Assembly: GCF_003387475.1 (NCBI RefSeq)
Contig: NZ_QUNO01000002.1
Coordinates: 558,001-622,000, forward strand
DNA from: Kutzneria buriramensis
GTDB taxonomy: Bacteria; Actinomycetota; Actinomycetes; Mycobacteriales; Pseudonocardiaceae
Length of the DNA: 64,000 bases
Reading direction: 5' to 3'
The notes under the pieces are model-generated. The model saw nothing but the letters and a program-made list of their open reading frames with translations. It was not told the origin of the DNA and ran no database searches. A program made the translations under genes and the position numbers. Below, piece after piece: positions 5,113 through 63,863 of the stretch. Position 1 is the first letter of the stretch; every line of letters begins with the position of its first letter.

Positions 5113-5663
5113 CCGGCTTCGGTGCGGTGCTGCTGGCCGGCGGCCGCGGCAGTCGGATGGGCGGGGTGCACAAGCCGGCGCTGGTCGTGGCCGGCAGCAC
5201 CCTGCTCGACCGCGCCCTGACGGCCGTCGCCGCCGCGTCGGAAGTGGTCGTGGTCGGGCCGGAGAGTGCCACGGCCAGGCCCGTGGTCTGGACCCGGGAG
5301 CAGCCGCCCGGCGGCGGTCCGGTCGCCGCGCTGGCCGCCGGCCTGCATCTCGTGACGACACCGGTGATAGCCGTGCTCGCCGCCGACCTCGTCGGCGTCA
5401 CGGCGGACACGGTGGCTCGGCTGCGTGCGGCCGTCGAACGCGACGGGGCCGTGCTGGACGACGGCCGCCCCCAGTGGTTGATCGGCGTGTGGCGGGCGGA
5501 CGCCCTGCGTAGAGTGCTGCCCGAGGACCCGGCGGGCGCGTCGCTGCGCTCGGCGCTGGGGCGGTTGGACTACGTCCCGGTCGCCGCCCGGCCGGGGGAG
5601 ACCGCCGACGTGGACACGCCCGTCGACCTGGCCCGGGCAGCTTCACAGCACCCATACCGGTGA
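5109..5663 (+). CDS. MobA-like NTP transferase (molybdenum cofactor guanylyltransferase family)
   Basis: This 184-residue Rossmann-type nucleotidyltransferase begins with LLAGGRGSRMGGVHKPAL (8-25), the NTP-binding signature of MobA/MocA proteins, which attach GMP or CMP to molybdopterin. The usual acidic metal segment after strand 4 (CDxPF in MobA) is changed to AADLVGVT, so substrate and activity are less certain than the fold. The GTG start at 5109 gives a GTGA overlap with the secreted protein upstream. No other molybdenum cofactor genes are nearby. Confidence 0.75.
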   Translation: MTGFGAVLLAGGRGSRMGGVHKPALVVAGSTLLDRALTAVAAASEVVVVGPESATARPVVWTREQPPGGGPVAALAAGLHLVTTPVIAVLAADLVGVTADTVARLRAAVERDGAVLDDGRPQWLIGVWRADALRRVLPEDPAGASLRSALGRLDYVPVAARPGETADVDTPVDLARAASQHPYR

Positions 5664-5710
5664 TCCGGTTACCTACCGTCGGAGCACGCCGTCATCTAGG
5701 AGGTCCGCAC

Positions 5711-6823
5711 GTGGCCGAGCCCGCCAACACCGAGGGCACGCCGCCGAACACCCCGGCCCGCGACGCCCAGCTGCTGGAGCGCACGGTGTTCGAGGTCAAG
5801 CGGGTGATCGTCGGCCAGGACCGGCTGGTCGAGCGCATGCTCGTGGGCCTGCTCGCCAAGGGGCACCTGCTGCTGGAGGGCGTGCCCGGCGTGGCCAAGA
5901 CGCTGGCCGTGGAGACCTTCGCCCGCGTCGTCGGCGGCAGCTTCAGCCGCGTCCAGTTCACCCCGGACCTGGTGCCCGCCGACATCCTCGGCACCCGCAT
6001 CTACCGCCAGACCAGCGAGACCTTCGACGTCGAGCTGGGCCCGGTGGTGGCCAACTTCGTGCTGGCCGACGAGATCAACCGCGCGCCGGCCAAGGTGCAG
6101 TCGGCGATGCTGGAGGTGATGGCCGAGCGGCACGTGTCGATCGGCGGCCAGACCTTCCCGATGCCCGACCCGTTCCTGGTGCTGGCCACCCAGAACCCCA
6201 TCGAGAACGAGGGCGTCTACCCGCTGCCCGAGGCCCAGCGCGACCGGTTCCTGTTCAAGATCGTCGTGGAGTACCCGACGGCCGAGGAGGAGCGCGAGAT
6301 CGTCTACCGGATGGGCGTCACGCCGCCGGAGCCGCAGCAGGTGCTCGGTCCCGACGAGCTGGTGCGCCTCCAGGACGTGGCGTCCAAGGTCTTCGTGCAC
6401 CACGCGCTGGTCGACTACGTGGTGCGGCTGGTGCTGGCCACCCGCTCGCCCGGCGACCACGGCTTGACCGACGTCGCCGGCTGGGTCGCCTACGGCGCCT
6501 CGCCGCGCGCCAGCCTGGGCATCGTCGCCGCCGCGCGCGCCCTGGCGCTGGTCCGCGGCCGCGACTACGTGCTGCCGCAGGACGTGGTGGACGTGGTGCC
6601 GGACGTGCTGCGGCACCGCCTCGTGCTGTCCTACGACGCGCTGGCCGACGGCGTGCCGTTGGACCACATCGTCGCCCGCGTGCTCCAGACGGTGCCGCTG
6701 CCGCAGGTGTCCGCGCGGCCGCAGGCCGGCCAGCCGATGACCGGCCCGCAGCCCCAGCAGCAGCCGCCGTTCCAGCCGCACCTCGGGCCGATGCAGCCGC
6801 CCGCGCCGGTCGGTAGGCCGTGA
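5711..6823 (+). CDS. moxR1: MoxR-family AAA+ ATPase
   Basis: This 370-residue AAA+ chaperone-like ATPase has Walker A GVPGVAKT (57-64), Walker B NFVLADEINRAP (115-126), sensor 1 ATQNP near 157 and the C-terminal lid. The last 30 residues are a Pro/Gln-rich tail. A strong AGGAGG at 5698-5703 places the start at GTG 5711. MoxR proteins act with DUF58 and VWA partners in maturation or envelope stress, and the same gene order occurs as moxR1-Rv1480-Rv1481 in M. tuberculosis; the symbol rests on that synteny. Its stop codon is part of the first mini-ORF start (GTGA at 6820-6823). Confidence 0.92.
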   Translation: MAEPANTEGTPPNTPARDAQLLERTVFEVKRVIVGQDRLVERMLVGLLAKGHLLLEGVPGVAKTLAVETFARVVGGSFSRVQFTPDLVPADILGTRIYRQTSETFDVELGPVVANFVLADEINRAPAKVQSAMLEVMAERHVSIGGQTFPMPDPFLVLATQNPIENEGVYPLPEAQRDRFLFKIVVEYPTAEEEREIVYRMGVTPPEPQQVLGPDELVRLQDVASKVFVHHALVDYVVRLVLATRSPGDHGLTDVAGWVAYGASPRASLGIVAAARALALVRGRDYVLPQDVVDVVPDVLRHRLVLSYDALADGVPLDHIVARVLQTVPLPQVSARPQAGQPMTGPQPQQQPPFQPHLGPMQPPAPVGRP

Positions 6824-6900
6824 GCGAGCTTGCGAGGTCACCGTTGGGCGCAGGGACCTGGGTCGCAGTCCCGCTGAGCGTTGGCGAGGTGGGTCTGTGA
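6820..6900 (+). CDS. Mini-ORF 1 of coupled chain (26 codons)
   Basis: GTG at 6820 overlaps the moxR stop (GTGA), and the frame is open for 26 codons to TGA at 6898-6900. The peptide starts VSELARSPLGAG and ends VPLSVGEVGL. Whether a stable peptide is made is unknown; the frame may serve only to hand ribosomes from gene to gene. Confidence 0.45.
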   Translation: MSELARSPLGAGTWVAVPLSVGEVGL

Positions 6901-6977
6901 TCGAGCTTGCGAGGTCGCCGTTGGGCGCAGGGACCTGGGTCGCAGTCCCGCTGAGCGTTGGCGAGGTGGGTCTGTGA
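6897..6977 (+). CDS. Mini-ORF 2 of coupled chain
   Basis: Starts at GTG 6897 inside the GTGA that also ends mini-ORF 1, preceded by GAGGTGGG. The peptide is the same as in unit 1 except Ile for Ser at position 2. Identical to units 3 and 4. Confidence 0.45.
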   Translation: MIELARSPLGAGTWVAVPLSVGEVGL

Positions 6978-7054
6978 TCGAGCTTGCGAGGTCGCCGTTG
7001 GGCGCAGGGACCTGGGTCGCAGTCCCGCTGAGCGTTGGCGAGGTGGGTCTGTGA
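6974..7054 (+). CDS. Mini-ORF 3 of coupled chain
   Basis: Starts at GTG 6974 in a GTGA overlap with mini-ORF 2 and ends with TGA at 7052-7054. Sequence identical to unit 2. Confidence 0.45.
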   Translation: MIELARSPLGAGTWVAVPLSVGEVGL

Positions 7055-7131
7055 TCGAGCTTGCGAGGTCGCCGTTGGGCGCAGGGACCTGGGTCGCAGT
7101 CCCGCTGAGCGTTGGCGAGGTGGGTCTGTGA
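7051..7131 (+). CDS. Mini-ORF 4 of coupled chain
   Basis: Starts at GTG 7051 in a GTGA overlap with mini-ORF 3 and ends with TGA at 7129-7131. Sequence identical to units 2 and 3. Confidence 0.45.
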   Translation: MIELARSPLGAGTWVAVPLSVGEVGL

Positions 7132-7208
7132 TCGAGCTTGCGAGGTCACCGTTGGGCGCAGGGACCTGGGTCGCAGTCCCGCCGAGCGTCAGCGAGGTGG
7201 GCCTGTGA
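7128..7208 (+). CDS. Mini-ORF 5 of coupled chain, overlapping the DUF58 start
   Basis: Starts at GTG 7128 and ends with TGA at 7206-7208, which overlaps the DUF58 GTG at 7205. Its C-terminal part reads PPSVSEVGL rather than PLSVGEVGL, closer to the single diverged unit at 8137-8220. Confidence 0.45.
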   Translation: MIELARSPLGAGTWVAVPPSVSEVGL

Positions 7209-8140
7209 CGGAACCACGCCCCCGCTGGGCTCCTCCCGTGCTGCGTGAGGAGAAGCTGGAGGCGGCGCTGCGCACCCTGGAGCTGGACGTGCGCCGCCGG
7301 TTGGACGGCCTGCTCCAGGGCAACCACCTGGGCCTGGTGCCCGGGCCCGGCACGGAGCCGGGCGAGGCGCGGCCGTACCAGCCGGGCGACGACGTGCGCC
7401 GCATGGACTGGGCGGTCACCGCTCGTACGACGCAGCCGCACATCCGGGAGACGGTCGCCGACCGCGAGCTGGAGACGTGGATGGCGGTCGATCTGTCGGC
7501 CTCGCTGGACTTCGGCACGGCGGCGTGCGAGAAGCGCGACCTCGCCGTCGCCGCCGTGGCGGCCTTCACGCACCTGACGGGCGGTGGCGGCAACCGCATC
7601 GGCGCCGTGCTGTCGACCGGTCAGGACACCGTGCGGCTGCCCGCGCGTGGCGGTCTCGCGCACGCCCGCAACCTGGTGCGCCGCGTCGCCACGATGCCGC
7701 GCGCGCCCGAAGGCGTCCGCGGTGACCTGGTGTCGCTGCTGGAACAGCTGCGCCGGCCGCCGCGCCGTCGCGGGCTGGCCGTGGTGATCTCGGACTTCCT
7801 GGGCGACCTGTCGTGGGAGCGGCCGCTGCGCGGGCTGTCGGCCCGGCACGACCTGGTGGCCGTGGAGATCATCGATCCGCGTGACATCGACCTGCCCGAG
7901 GTCGGCCTGGTGACGCTGGTGGACCCGGAGACCGGCCGGCAGCGTGAGGTGAACGCGTCGCCGCTGCTGCGCCGCCAGTTCTCCGCCGCCGCGGACGAGC
8001 ATCGGACGCAGGTCGCCGCCGGCCTGCGGCAGGCCAACTGCGCGCACCTGGTGCTGCGCACCGACTCCGACTGGATCGCCGACATGGTCCGCTTCGTCGT
8101 TGCCAGGAAACGGCGTTGGTCCGGGGGAGTCGCAGGGTGA
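7205..8140 (+). CDS. DUF58 domain protein, MoxR partner
   Basis: This 311-residue protein carries the DUF58 signature RPYQPGDDVRRMDW (56-69) and, after it, a VWA-like core with DLSASLDFG (96-104) in place of a full MIDAS. It corresponds to Rv1480 of the mycobacterial moxR1 locus and is expected to work with the MoxR ATPase upstream and the VWA membrane protein downstream. The GTG at 7205 is chosen because it overlaps the last mini-ORF stop, follows GAGGTGGG, and gives the family N-terminus; the longer frame would run through the repeat. Confidence 0.9.
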   Translation: MTEPRPRWAPPVLREEKLEAALRTLELDVRRRLDGLLQGNHLGLVPGPGTEPGEARPYQPGDDVRRMDWAVTARTTQPHIRETVADRELETWMAVDLSASLDFGTAACEKRDLAVAAVAAFTHLTGGGGNRIGAVLSTGQDTVRLPARGGLAHARNLVRRVATMPRAPEGVRGDLVSLLEQLRRPPRRRGLAVVISDFLGDLSWERPLRGLSARHDLVAVEIIDPRDIDLPEVGLVTLVDPETGRQREVNASPLLRRQFSAAADEHRTQVAAGLRQANCAHLVLRTDSDWIADMVRFVVARKRRWSGGVAG

Positions 8141-8220
8141 AGGAGCTTGCGGATTCACCCATCGACACAGCGAGCCGGCGAACGCCGTCGCCGAGCGTCA
8201 GCGAGGCGGGGGCACAGTGA
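8137..8220 (+). CDS. Sixth, diverged mini-ORF coupling DUF58 to VWA gene (27 codons)
   Basis: GTG at 8137 overlaps the DUF58 stop (GTGA at 8137-8140), and its TGA at 8218-8220 overlaps the GTG of the VWA gene. The ends match the 77-bp units (GAGCTTGCG near the start, CCGAGCGTCAGCGAGG near the end) while the middle is unrelated. The peptide begins VKELADSP and ends PSVSEAGAQ. The matching ends and the matching 4-nt overlaps argue that this is one more copy of the same element. Confidence 0.45.
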   Translation: MKELADSPIDTASRRTPSPSVSEAGAQ

Positions 8221-9197
8221 GTTTGACCGGGTTCACGGACCCGTTGTGGTTGCTGCTGATCGCCGTGGTGGCCGTCCTGGCCATCGGATACCTCGTGGTG
8301 CAGCGGGTACGCGTCCGTGACACCAAGCGCTTCACCAACCTGGAGCTGCTGGAGCGGGTCGCGCCGCGGCGGCCGGGCTGGCAGCGGCATATCCCGCCGG
8401 CGATGCTGGCCGTCGGCCTGATCCTGTTGAGCATCGCGCTGGCCGGGCCGACCGCCGAGCAGAAGGTGCCGCGCAACCGGGCCACCGTGATGCTGGTGAT
8501 GGACGTGTCGCTGTCGATGAACTCCACCGACATCCCGCCGTCCCGGCTGGCCGCCGCGCAGTCGGCCGCCAAGTCGTTCGCCGACCAGCTGACGCCCGGC
8601 GTGAACCTGGGGCTGATCGAGTTCGCCGGCTCGGCCACCGTGCTGGTGTCGCCGACGACCGACCGCAACCAGGTCAAGGCCGGCATCGACGCGCTGAAGC
8701 CGGCCGAGGCCACCGCCACCGGCGATGCCATCGCCGCCGCGGTGCAGGCCATCCAGTCCTTCGGCAAGCTGCTCACGGGCGCGGACGGGCCGCCGCCGGC
8801 GCGCATCGTGCTGCTGTCGGACGGCCGGGAGAACAACCCGGCGGACCCGAACGCGCCGCGCGGGGCGTACACCCAGGCCAAGGCCGCGCACCAGGCGCAG
8901 ATGCCGATCTCCGGCATCTACTTCGGCACCAAGGGCGGCACCGCCGACATCGACGGGCAGCAGGAGGACGTGCCCGGCGACGAGCAGCAGATGCAGCAGA
9001 TCGCCCGGCTGTCCGGCGGCGACAGCTACGACGCGCACAGCGCCGGGCAGCTCCAGAACGTCTACAACTCGCTGGCCTCGCAGATCGGCTACGAGACCAA
9101 GCAGGTGGACGCCAGCCAGCCGTGGCTGGCCCTGGGCACGCTGATCTCGCTGCTGTCGGTGGCCGCGTCGGTGCTGATCACCCAGCGGATCTCCTGA
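8217..9197 (+). CDS. VWA-domain membrane protein (BatA-like)
   Basis: This 326-residue protein has two N-terminal membrane helices (about 10-28 and 60-78), a von Willebrand A domain with MIDAS DVSLSMNS (Asp96), a later metal-site segment LLSDGREN, and a C-terminal membrane helix near 304-322. The layout is that of BatA-type proteins and Rv1481: the metal-binding domain is held at the membrane face. It is the last gene of the moxR unit and is followed by a hairpin terminator. The GTG at 8217 overlaps the stop of the sixth mini-ORF. Confidence 0.9.
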   Translation: MSLTGFTDPLWLLLIAVVAVLAIGYLVVQRVRVRDTKRFTNLELLERVAPRRPGWQRHIPPAMLAVGLILLSIALAGPTAEQKVPRNRATVMLVMDVSLSMNSTDIPPSRLAAAQSAAKSFADQLTPGVNLGLIEFAGSATVLVSPTTDRNQVKAGIDALKPAEATATGDAIAAAVQAIQSFGKLLTGADGPPPARIVLLSDGRENNPADPNAPRGAYTQAKAAHQAQMPISGIYFGTKGGTADIDGQQEDVPGDEQQMQQIARLSGGDSYDAHSAGQLQNVYNSLASQIGYETKQVDASQPWLALGTLISLLSVAASVLITQRIS

Positions 9198-30942: not shown

Positions 30943-31080
30943 CAGCTCACCGGCCGCGCAGCTCACCGGCCGCGCAGCTCACCGGCCGCGCAGCTCACCG
31001 GCCGCGCAGCCCATCGGCCGCGCAGCCCATCCCGCCGGCGCCCAATCCGTCGGTCGCCCAGTCCGTCGGTCGCCCAGCCG
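30943..31080. repeat. 16-bp tandem repeat array
   Basis: CAGCTCACCGGCCGCG repeats at 30943, 30959, 30975 and 30991, followed by variants (CAGCCCATCGGCCGCG at 31007 and 31023) and more diverged units near 31039-31080 that keep the 16-bp step. It fills most of the space after the GntR gene. The 415 bp between 30906 and 31320 otherwise hold only the leader ORF below. Confidence 0.85.
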
Positions 31081-61427: not shown

Positions 61428-63863
61428 GTGCCGTTGTCCGAGGCGCCGACACGCTGCGAGACGTGCGGTGACGAGCTGCCGGCGCGTGGGGACGGACCGG
61501 GGCGGCCGGCCAGGTTCTGCTCGCGGGCGTGCCGCCAGCGGGCCTACCGCCGGCGCAGCGGCGACCAGCAGCCCGAGGTCGAGCAGCCCGAGGTCGAGCA
61601 GCCCGAGGTCAATCGGGGGGCCACCTCGGCGCGTCCGCTGCCGGCGAGCCGCGACGCGTTCATCGGCCGCGCCCAGGAGCTGACCGACATCACCGCGCTG
61701 CTGCGCCGGTCGCGGCTGGTGAGCCTGGTCGGCCCGGGCGGTGCCGGCAAGACGCGGCTGGCCACCGAGTTCGCCGCCCGTGCGGCAACCACCGGCCCCG
61801 ACGGCGTGTGGCTCGTCGAGCTGGCCCCGCTGACCAGCGAACACCTCCTCGTGCCGACGATCGCGGCCGCGCTGGGCGTGCGCGAGCAGGGCGGCGAGGA
61901 CCTCGTGGACACGATTGTCCAGGCGCTGCAAGGAAAGCGAGCCCTGCTCGTGCTGGACAACTGCGAGCACCTGGTCGACGCCAGCGCCTCGCTCGCCGAT
62001 GCCTTGCTCACCGGCTGCCCGCAGCTGCGGATCCTCGTCACCAGCCGGGAATCCCTTGACCTGCCAGGGGAAGCGGTGCTCCGGGTCGGTCACCTGTCGC
62101 TGCCCGACGACACGCCCGTGGCGCGCTCCGACGCGGTTCAGCTGTTCGTGGAACGGGCCCGCCTGCTGCGACCCGACTTCGAGCCGACGGACGCGACGCG
62201 CCAGGTCGTCGCCGAGATCTGCGTACGGCTGGACGGCATGCCGCTGGCGATCGAGCTGGCCGCCCGCTGGGTGCGGGTGCTGTCCGTCGAGGACATCCTG
62301 GCCCGCCTCGACGACCGGTTCGAACTGCTGTCCCGGGGCCCGCGCACGGCCGCCGTCCGGCACCGCGACCTGCGGGCGACCATCGAGTGGAGCTATGAGC
62401 TCCTCGACGACGCCGAACGGGCGGCGCTGCGCCGACTTTCCGTGCTGGCCGGCGACTTCAGCCTCGACTCGGCCGGCGCGGTGTGCGGCACGAGCCCGCA
62501 GGCCACCCTGCGGCTGCTGGCCGACCTGGACGCGAAGTCGCTGGTCGTGGCCGTGCCGGGGGTGGTGCAGCGGTTCCGCCAGCTGGAGTCGATCCGGCTC
62601 TACGCGCGGGAGAAGCTGGTCGACGCGGGCGAGCTGGCGGAGACCACCGAGCGCCTGGTCGGCTGGCTGACCGGGCTGGCCGAATCGCACTACGTGGACC
62701 AGATCCTGTACACGGTCGAGGACGACGGTCCCAAGGTCGACGACGAGCGGGACAACCTGCTGCAAGCCGTGGAATGGGCCACCGAGCGGCGCGACGAGCG
62801 GCTGACGGTGCTGGCGGCGGCGCTGGGCGGGGCGTGGCGGCGGCAGGGCCACACCGTGCAGATCCGCAAGCTGCTCGAGGCGGCGCTGACGATCACCAAG
62901 CGGGACAACCCGTATCGCAGCCTGGCGTTGCAGGAACTGGGCTGGTTCTCCTACAACGCGGGGGACTTCGAGCGGTCCAGCGAGCTTGCCGTCGAGGCGA
63001 TGGAGCTGGAGGAGCCGCGCGGCCGGCCGGTGGCGCTGGCGCGCGGCCTGGCCCTGCTGACGGTGGTGTACCAGTCGACCGACAACACGGCGGCGAGCGT
63101 GCGCTGCGCCGAGCGGGTCGTCGAGCTGCTGCGGCCGCTCAACCGGCCGCTGGACACCGCGGTCAGCATGCACAATCTCGGCTACGCCCTGATGGCGACC
63201 GGGGACCTGGCGCGGGCGGCGGCGCTGATCGAGGAGAGCCTGCCGGTCTACCTGGAGCTGGCCGACCCGGTGAAGCAGCTGGAGACCCTGCACTCCGCGG
63301 GCGCTCTCGCCCTGGAACGCGGGCAGCACGTGCAGGCCGGCGACTACTTCCTGCGCAGCCTGGAGGCCTGCCCCGAGGCGGGCTCGCCGGCGATGTACCC
63401 GATCGAGGGGCTGGCGGTGGTCGCCGCGCACACCGGCGAGCCGAAGCGCGCCCTGTTGCTGGGCACGGCCATGGCGGCGCAGCTGCGGAAGTGGCGGCTG
63501 GGCCGGGAGCCGTACTGGCAGCGGCACGTGGATGTCGCGATGGCCGCGGCCCGGGATGCGCTGAGCGCGCAGGCGGCCCGCGAGACCACCGAGGCCGGCG
63601 AGCGGATGACGCTGGCGCAGGCGATCGCGTACTCGCTGCGGACGCCGCTGGCCGAGGACTCGCCGCTGTCGCAGCGGGAGCTGGACGTGGCGATGCTGAC
63701 CGCGGAGGGGCTGACCAACCGGGAGATCGCCGTCCGGCTGTCGATCTCCGAACGGACCGTGGAGACGCACCTGCTGCACATCCGCACCAAGCTGGACCTG
63801 CGCACCCGCGCCCAGGTGGCGGCGTGGGCGGTCGAGCGCGGCCGGGTTTCGTCACGCAACTGA
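61428..63863 (+). CDS. LuxR-type regulator with NB-ARC-like ATPase and N-terminal zinc-ribbon-like motif
   Basis: This 811-residue protein starts with a Cys cluster, CETCGD (10-15) and FCSRACRQRAYRRR (30-43), that resembles a small zinc ribbon. A linker with three QPEVE repeats (from 15-bp DNA repeats at 61569-61613) follows. Then come an STAND ATPase with Walker A GPGGAGKT (102-109) and Walker B ALLVLDNCEHL, a TPR-like helical region (about 430-690), and a C-terminal LuxR HTH (LSQRELDVAMLTAEGLTNREIAVRLSISERTVETHL). It is probably a signal-gated activator. GTG 61428; TTG 61434 is possible. Confidence 0.9.
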   Translation: MPLSEAPTRCETCGDELPARGDGPGRPARFCSRACRQRAYRRRSGDQQPEVEQPEVEQPEVNRGATSARPLPASRDAFIGRAQELTDITALLRRSRLVSLVGPGGAGKTRLATEFAARAATTGPDGVWLVELAPLTSEHLLVPTIAAALGVREQGGEDLVDTIVQALQGKRALLVLDNCEHLVDASASLADALLTGCPQLRILVTSRESLDLPGEAVLRVGHLSLPDDTPVARSDAVQLFVERARLLRPDFEPTDATRQVVAEICVRLDGMPLAIELAARWVRVLSVEDILARLDDRFELLSRGPRTAAVRHRDLRATIEWSYELLDDAERAALRRLSVLAGDFSLDSAGAVCGTSPQATLRLLADLDAKSLVVAVPGVVQRFRQLESIRLYAREKLVDAGELAETTERLVGWLTGLAESHYVDQILYTVEDDGPKVDDERDNLLQAVEWATERRDERLTVLAAALGGAWRRQGHTVQIRKLLEAALTITKRDNPYRSLALQELGWFSYNAGDFERSSELAVEAMELEEPRGRPVALARGLALLTVVYQSTDNTAASVRCAERVVELLRPLNRPLDTAVSMHNLGYALMATGDLARAAALIEESLPVYLELADPVKQLETLHSAGALALERGQHVQAGDYFLRSLEACPEAGSPAMYPIEGLAVVAAHTGEPKRALLLGTAMAAQLRKWRLGREPYWQRHVDVAMAAARDALSAQAARETTEAGERMTLAQAIAYSLRTPLAEDSPLSQRELDVAMLTAEGLTNREIAVRLSISERTVETHLLHIRTKLDLRTRAQVAAWAVERGRVSSRN

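Follow-up and report, generated by a model that had tools for sequence, protein, structure and literature searches.

In a 64,000-nucleotide stretch of the Kutzneria buriramensis genome (contig NZ_QUNO01000002.1, positions 558,001 to 622,000; here called the window), a chain of five 77-bp tandem repeats joins moxR to a gene for a DUF58 protein. This array is probably one locus of a mobile mini-open reading frame (mini-ORF) that resembles the mycobacterial interspersed repetitive unit (MIRU), and an RNA hairpin predicted within it would make the downstream start depend on ribosomes arriving from the upstream gene. The dispersal of the unit, its insertion position, its empty sites, and a strong predicted hairpin can all be read from the sequences across the family. 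The predicted hairpin is the new addition relative to MIRU.

A five-unit array between moxR and DUF58

The original prediction, made from the letters of the window, had described five GTGA-chained units between moxR and DUF58. Tandem Repeats Finder and the sequence itself confirmed this array at positions 6820-7208 (period 77, 5.1 copies, 97% matches). The moxR stop lies in the GTGA at 6820-6823 and the DUF58 start in the GTGA at 7205-7208, and neighboring units overlap in one common GTGA that holds the stop of one frame and the start of the next. As had also been proposed, every unit runs for 26 codons from GTG and then TGA despite the 77-bp period (pattern V[SI]ELARSPLGAGTWVAVP[LP]SV[GS]EVGL*), and all five starts are preceded by GAGGTGGG. 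Units 2, 3, and 4 are identical in sequence, and a diverged sixth unit, absent from the original prediction, joins DUF58 to the VWA gene in the same operon (Table 1).

Since other frames of this GC-rich unit are also open, the open 26-codon frame alone is weak evidence; what exceeds chance is the position of the units. A search against Rfam gave a single match, far below the family threshold and off the array at 8376-8477, and the array had no match in plasmid and phage collections at E 0.01.

The unit belongs to a dispersed family

Searching with one unit returned 53 matches (E ≤ 10) in its own genome, 31 of them full length. A sequence-only model built from 23 copies (R1; threshold, E ≤ 1e-5) found matches in 16 of 60 relatives' genomes, comprising 7/7 from the genus, 8/29 from other genera of the family, and 1/24 from other families. 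The genus genomes G000 to G006 held 51, 17, 29, 76, 73, 2, and 58 matches, respectively (304 across six of them), and there were fewer in other genera.

Units of 77, 83, and 74 bp occur, and the genes downstream of them in the own genome include aroQ, ispF, bioB, the gene for thymidine phosphorylase, and a kdpE-like gene that scores below the family cutoff. Among 120 arrays at the 119 loci fetched from G000 to G004 and G006, 97 hold one unit, 14 hold two, 6 hold three, 2 hold four, and 1 holds five; the 23 multi-unit arrays lie at unrelated genes. Units within an array are 97.2% identical (37 pairs), compared with 84.5% between arrays (2926 pairs), and arrays therefore seem to have grown locally and recently. 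Of the 30 loci fetched from other genera, 16 held a single 77-nt unit, five held one of 74 or 80 nt, four held a unit of 76 or 78 nt that breaks the frame, four held a multi-unit array, and one had no recognized end.

Position at stop/start junctions and empty sites

We tested for coding phase on both sides of each array using third-position GC, with 1444 RTGA sites (R, A or G) in the flanks of the same loci as controls. The upstream coding frame ends at the 5′ TGA in 95/120 arrays, compared with 8.7% of control sites, and 89/120 arrays lie between two coding phases, compared with 80/1444 controls (5.5%). Copies thus sit at stop-start junctions in most cases, but not always. At L065 in G001, a full unit lies at GTGCGA, a short distance upstream of a uracil-DNA glycosylase domain (Pfam UDG, 4.2e-36), and its ends show no coding-phase junction; given that GTGCGA is not an RTGA start, insertion is not confined to starts.

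For 20 own-genome loci, the flanks were joined without the unit, and 15 of these were searched for in four species of the genus. The 15 were chosen for a convincing upstream gene, a choice that yields no estimate of how often insertion needs an overlap. The 60 locus-genome pairs comprised 41 empty alleles, 18 filled alleles, and 1 unmatched, so that the mobility expected of a MIRU is seen here in the form of alternative alleles. A bare RTGA stood at the junction in 41/41 empty alleles (35 GTGA and 6 ATGA). Among filled alleles at 16 loci, moxR included, 33/37 were of exact length, with one insert of 74 nt and the rest whole multiples of 77 or 83; the other four measured 155, 155, 78, and 92 nt, and two empty alleles were off by 3 nt.

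At moxR-DUF58, the insert measures 385 bp in G000, 0 in G001, and 77 bp each in G002, G003, and G004; the junction is a bare ATGA in G005 and G006, and no unit was seen by eye at 22 orthologous junctions in other genera (30 loci read; L058 was unreadable). Unit number at this junction varies between species, from 0 to 5. L012 carries three 77-bp units in G000 and two 83-bp units of another subfamily in G002, which suggests independent insertions.

Empty alleles carried mostly GTGA at 14/15 loci, while native overlaps comprised 16 GTGA, 15 ATGA, and 3 TTGA (P = 0.007, by locus). The start codon can also change with filling: at L072 the empty alleles have GTGA and the filled 3′ end has ATGA, and at L019 four empty alleles have ATGA and both filled ends have GTGA. 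The start codon may thus arrive with the unit itself.

A predicted hairpin over the downstream start

The predicted family hairpin joins unit positions 44-56 to 69-81 and thereby sequesters most of the Shine-Dalgarno sequence together with the next GTGA. The hairpin given in Table 1 for unit 5 occupies the equivalent place in units 1 to 4. For 91 intact units, each from a different locus, the 3′ half (final 38 nt) had a mean z-score of -3.56, with 73/91 below -2. The 72 distinct 3′ halves averaged -3.66 (64 below -2), compared with -1.21 for their reverse strand (17/72 below -2) and +0.51 for 5′ halves (3/81 below -2).

In an alignment of 107 distinct rows made without a structure model, 93.6% of hairpin cells were paired, compared with 32-55% in slid versions, a comparison that favors the tested structure because it is the fold of one unit. 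Double-change cells numbered 40, compared with 12.9 in shuffles (0/500 as high). RNAalifold on 23 units returned a weaker form of the family hairpin, for which the covariation term was only -0.57.

The predicted probability that the start is unpaired averaged 0.06 in filled alleles and 0.31 in empty ones over 15 loci, being lower upon filling in 14/15. Predicted Shine-Dalgarno accessibility fell from 0.41 to 0.33 and was lower in 12/15 loci. The Shine-Dalgarno GAGG itself is kept in 73/76 loci. In the other genera, 21 of the 30 units were tested and had a mean z-score of -2.62 (14 below -2) and a mean start accessibility of 0.28 (range, 0 to 0.99).

The hairpin originally proposed was a different one, GGGAC/GTCCC. 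It is present in 5/5 units of the moxR-DUF58 array, but it was found in 1/76 loci, and we rejected it as a family feature.

Frame and peptide of the mini-ORF

Outside G006, 139 units were extracted, of which 122 were full (at least 74 nt long, with a TGA at each end); the 17 others were truncated, ended otherwise, or had been shortened by the aligner. The mini-ORF was intact in 116/122 full units. We rejected selection on its peptide, since pN/pS (the ratio of nonsynonymous to synonymous polymorphism) was 0.93 over 76 units and 50/100 column shuffles were as low, indicating no codon-level constraint. The other two forward frames gave 1.20 and 0.81, so that the mini-ORF frame was not distinguished, and the peptide matched no Pfam family.

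Some copies depart from the pattern. L143 (G004) has three units fused into one 81-codon frame, and in L119 (G003) the downstream frame is extended N-terminally by one unit fused to it in frame. These look like one and the same junction and may be repeats turning into coding sequence. Separately, L141 and L145 (G004) are arrays spaced 78 bp rather than 77 bp, in which the mini-ORF misses the stop in the next GTGA; they are candidate natural variants with a broken relay.

Table 1. Features of the moxR-DUF58 region, in window coordinates
Feature	Positions	Strand	Evidence or remarks
moxR (AAA_3 ATPase)	5660..6823	+	Pfam AAA_3 2.8e-60; ends in GTGA 6820-6823; exact start uncertain
Unit 1, mini-ORF VSELARSPLGAGTWVAVPLSVGEVGL*	6820..6900	+	Sequence reading
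Unit 2, same sequence as units 3 and 4	6897..6977	+	Sequence reading
Unit 3	6974..7054	+	Sequence reading
Unit 4	7051..7131	+	Sequence reading
Unit 5, nearest of the five to the single units of G002 and G003 (0.926) and G004 (0.889)	7128..7208	+	
Predicted start-masking RNA hairpin of unit 5	7171..7208	+	Unit positions 44-81; 44-56 pair with 69-81
Shine-Dalgarno-like GAGGTGGG before DUF58 start	7194..7201	+	Last six bases within hairpin stem
DUF58 gene, start in last shared GTGA	7205..8140	+	Pfam DUF58 7.2e-75
Diverged sixth unit, 84 nt, VKELADSPIDTASRRTPSPSVSEAGAQ*, GTGA to GTGA	8137..8220	+	nhmmer 41.3 bits; cmsearch 7.1e-14
VWA/BatA-like gene, start in GTGA closing sixth unit	8217..9197	+	Pfam VWA_2 1.5e-20, BatA 1.5e-6

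Elsewhere in the window there are clean tandem repeats at 30943-31026 (16 bp, 5.2 copies, 97%) and 61567-61610 (15 bp, 2.9 copies, 100%).

Proposed mechanism

From these features we infer a role for the hairpin, actual restarting of ribosomes, an effect on expression, and movement of the element. An element of the form RTGA-(about 73 bp)-RTGA would enter GTGA gene starts, mostly at existing 4-nt stop/start overlaps, such that after insertion the upstream gene would still end, and the downstream gene still begin, at an RTGA. The short frame between them would start in the first RTGA and stop in the second. In the RNA, the 3′ half of the element would fold and hide the Shine-Dalgarno sequence and the next start codon. 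A ribosome stopping at the upstream TGA could restart on the overlapping GTG, read the mini-ORF, and melt the hairpin; the same ribosome would then stop in the next GTGA and restart there. With fresh initiation at the downstream start damped, the downstream gene would come to depend on the upstream gene. Recombination between units could produce tandem growth, adding links while retaining the coupling property.

A bolder form of this proposal, which we put forward tentatively, is that the element is a mobile RNA-gated relay that seeks GTGA overlaps, carries its masking hairpin with it, makes loosely coupled gene pairs obligatorily coupled, and lengthens its chain by duplication. The predicted hairpin contains G-U pairs and is stronger on the sense strand, and the RNA form itself may take part in insertion.

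The original interpretation is thus partly supported. The ribosome hand-over that it proposed is plausible and now appears better founded, given the predicted start-masking hairpin, the kept GAGG, and the largely intact mini-ORF. Its claims of novelty, selection, and ratio tuning did not hold. It had argued that amplification which kept the coupling implies selection, but the segment that is duplicated has a GTGA at either end, so by simple reasoning the coupling is preserved automatically and without selection.

Several observations weigh against the hand-over mechanism or narrow the evidence for it. The frame is broken in 6/122 full units, four of which have one extra base beside the start (two within one array), and among the excluded units L143, L145, and L119 show shifts or fusions. 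Overlap-breaking copies, which had been named in advance as a refuting sign, therefore do occur, in these six and in some of the 17 excluded units, and exact hand-over would not always be needed. The RTGA found at the 5′ end of 118/120 arrays and at the 3′ end of 111/120 is there partly by construction, as the query and the model contain it. The downstream frame begins at the 3′ RTG in 110/120 arrays, but this test says little because 78% of control sites pass it; it is the upstream and joint tests that carry the junction result. No upstream coding phase ends at the 5′ TGA in 21/120 arrays, and 4/120 have no coding phase on either side; the arrays are also not independent, with orthologous sites of several genomes counted separately, which makes the P values of the comparison with control sites too small. 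Simple target duplication does not explain L019, with its ATGA empty alleles and GTGA at the filled ends.

For the hairpin, the 3′ half was selected after the fold had been seen; whole units had a mean z-score of only -1.31 (24/91 below -2), and whole-unit folds of six units were unremarkable (z, -0.8 to -2.0). Two covariation measures, the ones that relatedness inflates least, were borderline: pairs with double changes (5, compared with 3.2 in shuffles; 21/500 as high) and further pair types (17, compared with 15.0; 28/500 as high). At L072, the start is predicted to be more open when the site is filled. Finally, no mobility helper was found: Y1_Tnp (PF01797, E ≤ 1e-5) was present in 9/60 genomes but in 0/16 unit-bearing genomes, some of which are drafts.

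Alternative explanations

The unit could instead be a purely selfish mobile repeat whose insertion at starts and open frame are merely harmless and whose hairpin serves mobility or RNA stability. We consider this rather unlikely. It agrees with the patchy occupancy of moxR-DUF58 over five species, the unrelated target genes, the lack of codon-level constraint, the existence of frame-broken copies, and the L065 copy before the UDG domain rather than at a start. Against it, the predicted hairpin is more pronounced for the sense strand than for the complement (-3.66 compared with -1.21) and covers the Shine-Dalgarno sequence and the start. Copy number selected to tune the MoxR:DUF58 ratio, as originally suggested, is improbable. 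The five units found here, compared with zero or one in relatives, would fit such tuning, and longer repeat regions upstream of fpg1 in Mycobacterium tuberculosis are reported to go with higher mRNA (PMC2734929). However, copy number is not conserved (0, 1, 1, 1, and 5 units in five species), multi-unit arrays lie at many unrelated junctions, codon-level constraint is missing, and the higher identity within arrays than between them (0.972 compared with 0.845) points to recent local growth. Beyond unequal copy number, dosage tuning is not supported.

A functional 26-residue peptide amplified for dosage is very unlikely: although the frame is kept in most full units and the pattern VSELAS...SASEE recurs in other genera, pN/pS is no better than in column shuffles or distinct from the other frames, and no Pfam family is matched. 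Similarly, we find it hard to credit that the unit is a repetitive extragenic palindromic (REP)-like or IS200/IS605-like element moved by a Y1 transposase (TnpA or the REP-associated tyrosine transposase [RAYT]) that reads a hairpin and a tetranucleotide. The units resemble such elements in their tetranucleotide preference and in having a tetranucleotide at the foot of the hairpin, but a Y1 helper was not supported, being absent from every unit-bearing genome. An assembly artifact or a chance local duplication is extremely unlikely. The source assembly is a draft of 65 contigs in which the three middle units are identical, so that the exact count of five is unproven, yet the family, the site, and multi-unit arrays recur in single-contig relatives (multi-unit arrays in G003 and G004).

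This is a second family, without detectable similarity to MIRU, that offers hundreds of copies, clean empty sites, and orthologous junctions at which unit number naturally ranges from 0 to 5. These features make testable the efficiency of reinitiation per junction, the neutrality of the repeats, and the way in which a mobile repeat finds start codons, and the hairpin suggests one specific way in which an insert might preserve, or even tighten, operon coupling. Were the hand-over imperfect, unit number would predict a geometric fall of the downstream product; with five units, six hand-overs would be needed and less DUF58 would be made per MoxR.

Comparison with MIRU and other known systems

MIRUs were reportedly first described in 1997 by Supply et al., with insertion into DTGA sites (D, A, G, or T). 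The original prediction knew of no described system like the array, but a 2025 review (PMC12548453) presents MIRUs as repeats that are apparently mobile, insert at start codons, and are coupled at -4 nt. Other sources give their size as roughly 40-100 bp, propose a role in differential translation, and call their function not well understood (PMC2734929); they also report three 77-bp MIRUs between senX3 and regX3 of M. tuberculosis H37Rv, in a region with promoter activity (PMC4213456), and two or three 77-bp repeats there in strains of bacillus Calmette-Guérin (BCG) (PMC9392950).

The Kutzneria units resemble MIRUs in being dispersed short direct repeats and, judged by their position, in entering at start codons and carrying their own ORF, which would be coupled to the downstream gene at -4. 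Tandem copies occur in both, those at senX3-regX3 of M. tuberculosis having 77-bp units as well (PMC4213456). A unit directly precedes the regX3 ortholog here (L023; PDB 2oqr match, 1.9e-117), as a Mycobacterium unit precedes regX3 at L163, and bioB is invaded in both lineages (L030 here; mycobacterial L330, a bioB fragment that scores just below the family cutoff). Unit length is 2 mod 3 in 116/122 full units here, and the mycobacterial regX3 units that we measured (53, 53, 53, 101, 59, and 53) are also 2 mod 3.

In contrast, ten mycobacterial units found from one query are 53 bp long and end in ATGA, and 13 mycobacterial units lack the predicted hairpin signal (last 38 nt: mean z of 0.0, none below -2, compared with -3.56 here). 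R1 reached a best E of 0.0036 in six mycobacterial genomes, with the M. tuberculosis repeats not among the sequences compared, and 91 units compared with 10 mycobacterial units scored 18.4, compared with 19.0 for shuffles. Homology to mycobacterial units was therefore not found, although GAGCG..AGCGA..GAGG is visible by eye in both.

By eye, 80 named regX3 loci included eight with units before the start: six in mycobacterial sequence (including one from a record titled Acidobacteria), one in Amycolatopsis, and one in a Mycolicibacterium with its own chain; others such as L161, L162, and L209 (Saccharothrix) look empty. The Amycolatopsis antarctica unit (L207) runs 71 bp from GTGA to GTGA (VTELVRAVPTGRTAPGVDSGSEAA*), has no hairpin signal, and is possibly a distant relative of the Kutzneria family. 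Before regX3 of Mycolicibacterium sediminis (L178) stands a 53-bp tandem chain made of the first codons of regX3 and a tail, in which the frames MTSVLIVEDTYPEGTAL* each end in a TGATG that starts the next frame; this is apparently an independent origin of a coupled mini-ORF chain. L170, from a record titled as an Acidobacteria metagenome-assembled genome, contains two coupled mini-units in a regX3 region of mycobacterial appearance and is probably a misbinned contig.

In the open-license literature searched, we recognized no MIRU-like family outside mycobacteria, a result that makes no claim about print more widely; the word "MIRU-like" occurs in one Trichodesmium paper, and the term MIRU does not occur in the available text of PMC2229807, on small mobile repeats.

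MIRU-variable-number tandem repeat typing loci also are tandem arrays of variable copy number, as at senX3-regX3 of BCG (PMC9392950), but the variation seen here is between species. REP/RAYT and IS200/IS605-derived elements are likewise small palindromic repeats with a tetranucleotide preference, but none of the 16 unit-bearing genomes examined has a Y1 match, and the fold here is stronger on the sense strand. Translational coupling by a structure that masks the downstream start is a general mechanism, and the hairpin predicted here would be an instance of it, covering the Shine-Dalgarno sequence and the start until the upstream ribosome opens it; the difference is that here the structure rides on a mobile repeat and can be chained. 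The Kutzneria unit family works like a MIRU but is not classed as one, the predicted hairpin being the difference. It represents a known way of life with one addition, the hairpin predicted to mask the start, and its sequences show no detectable similarity to MIRU.

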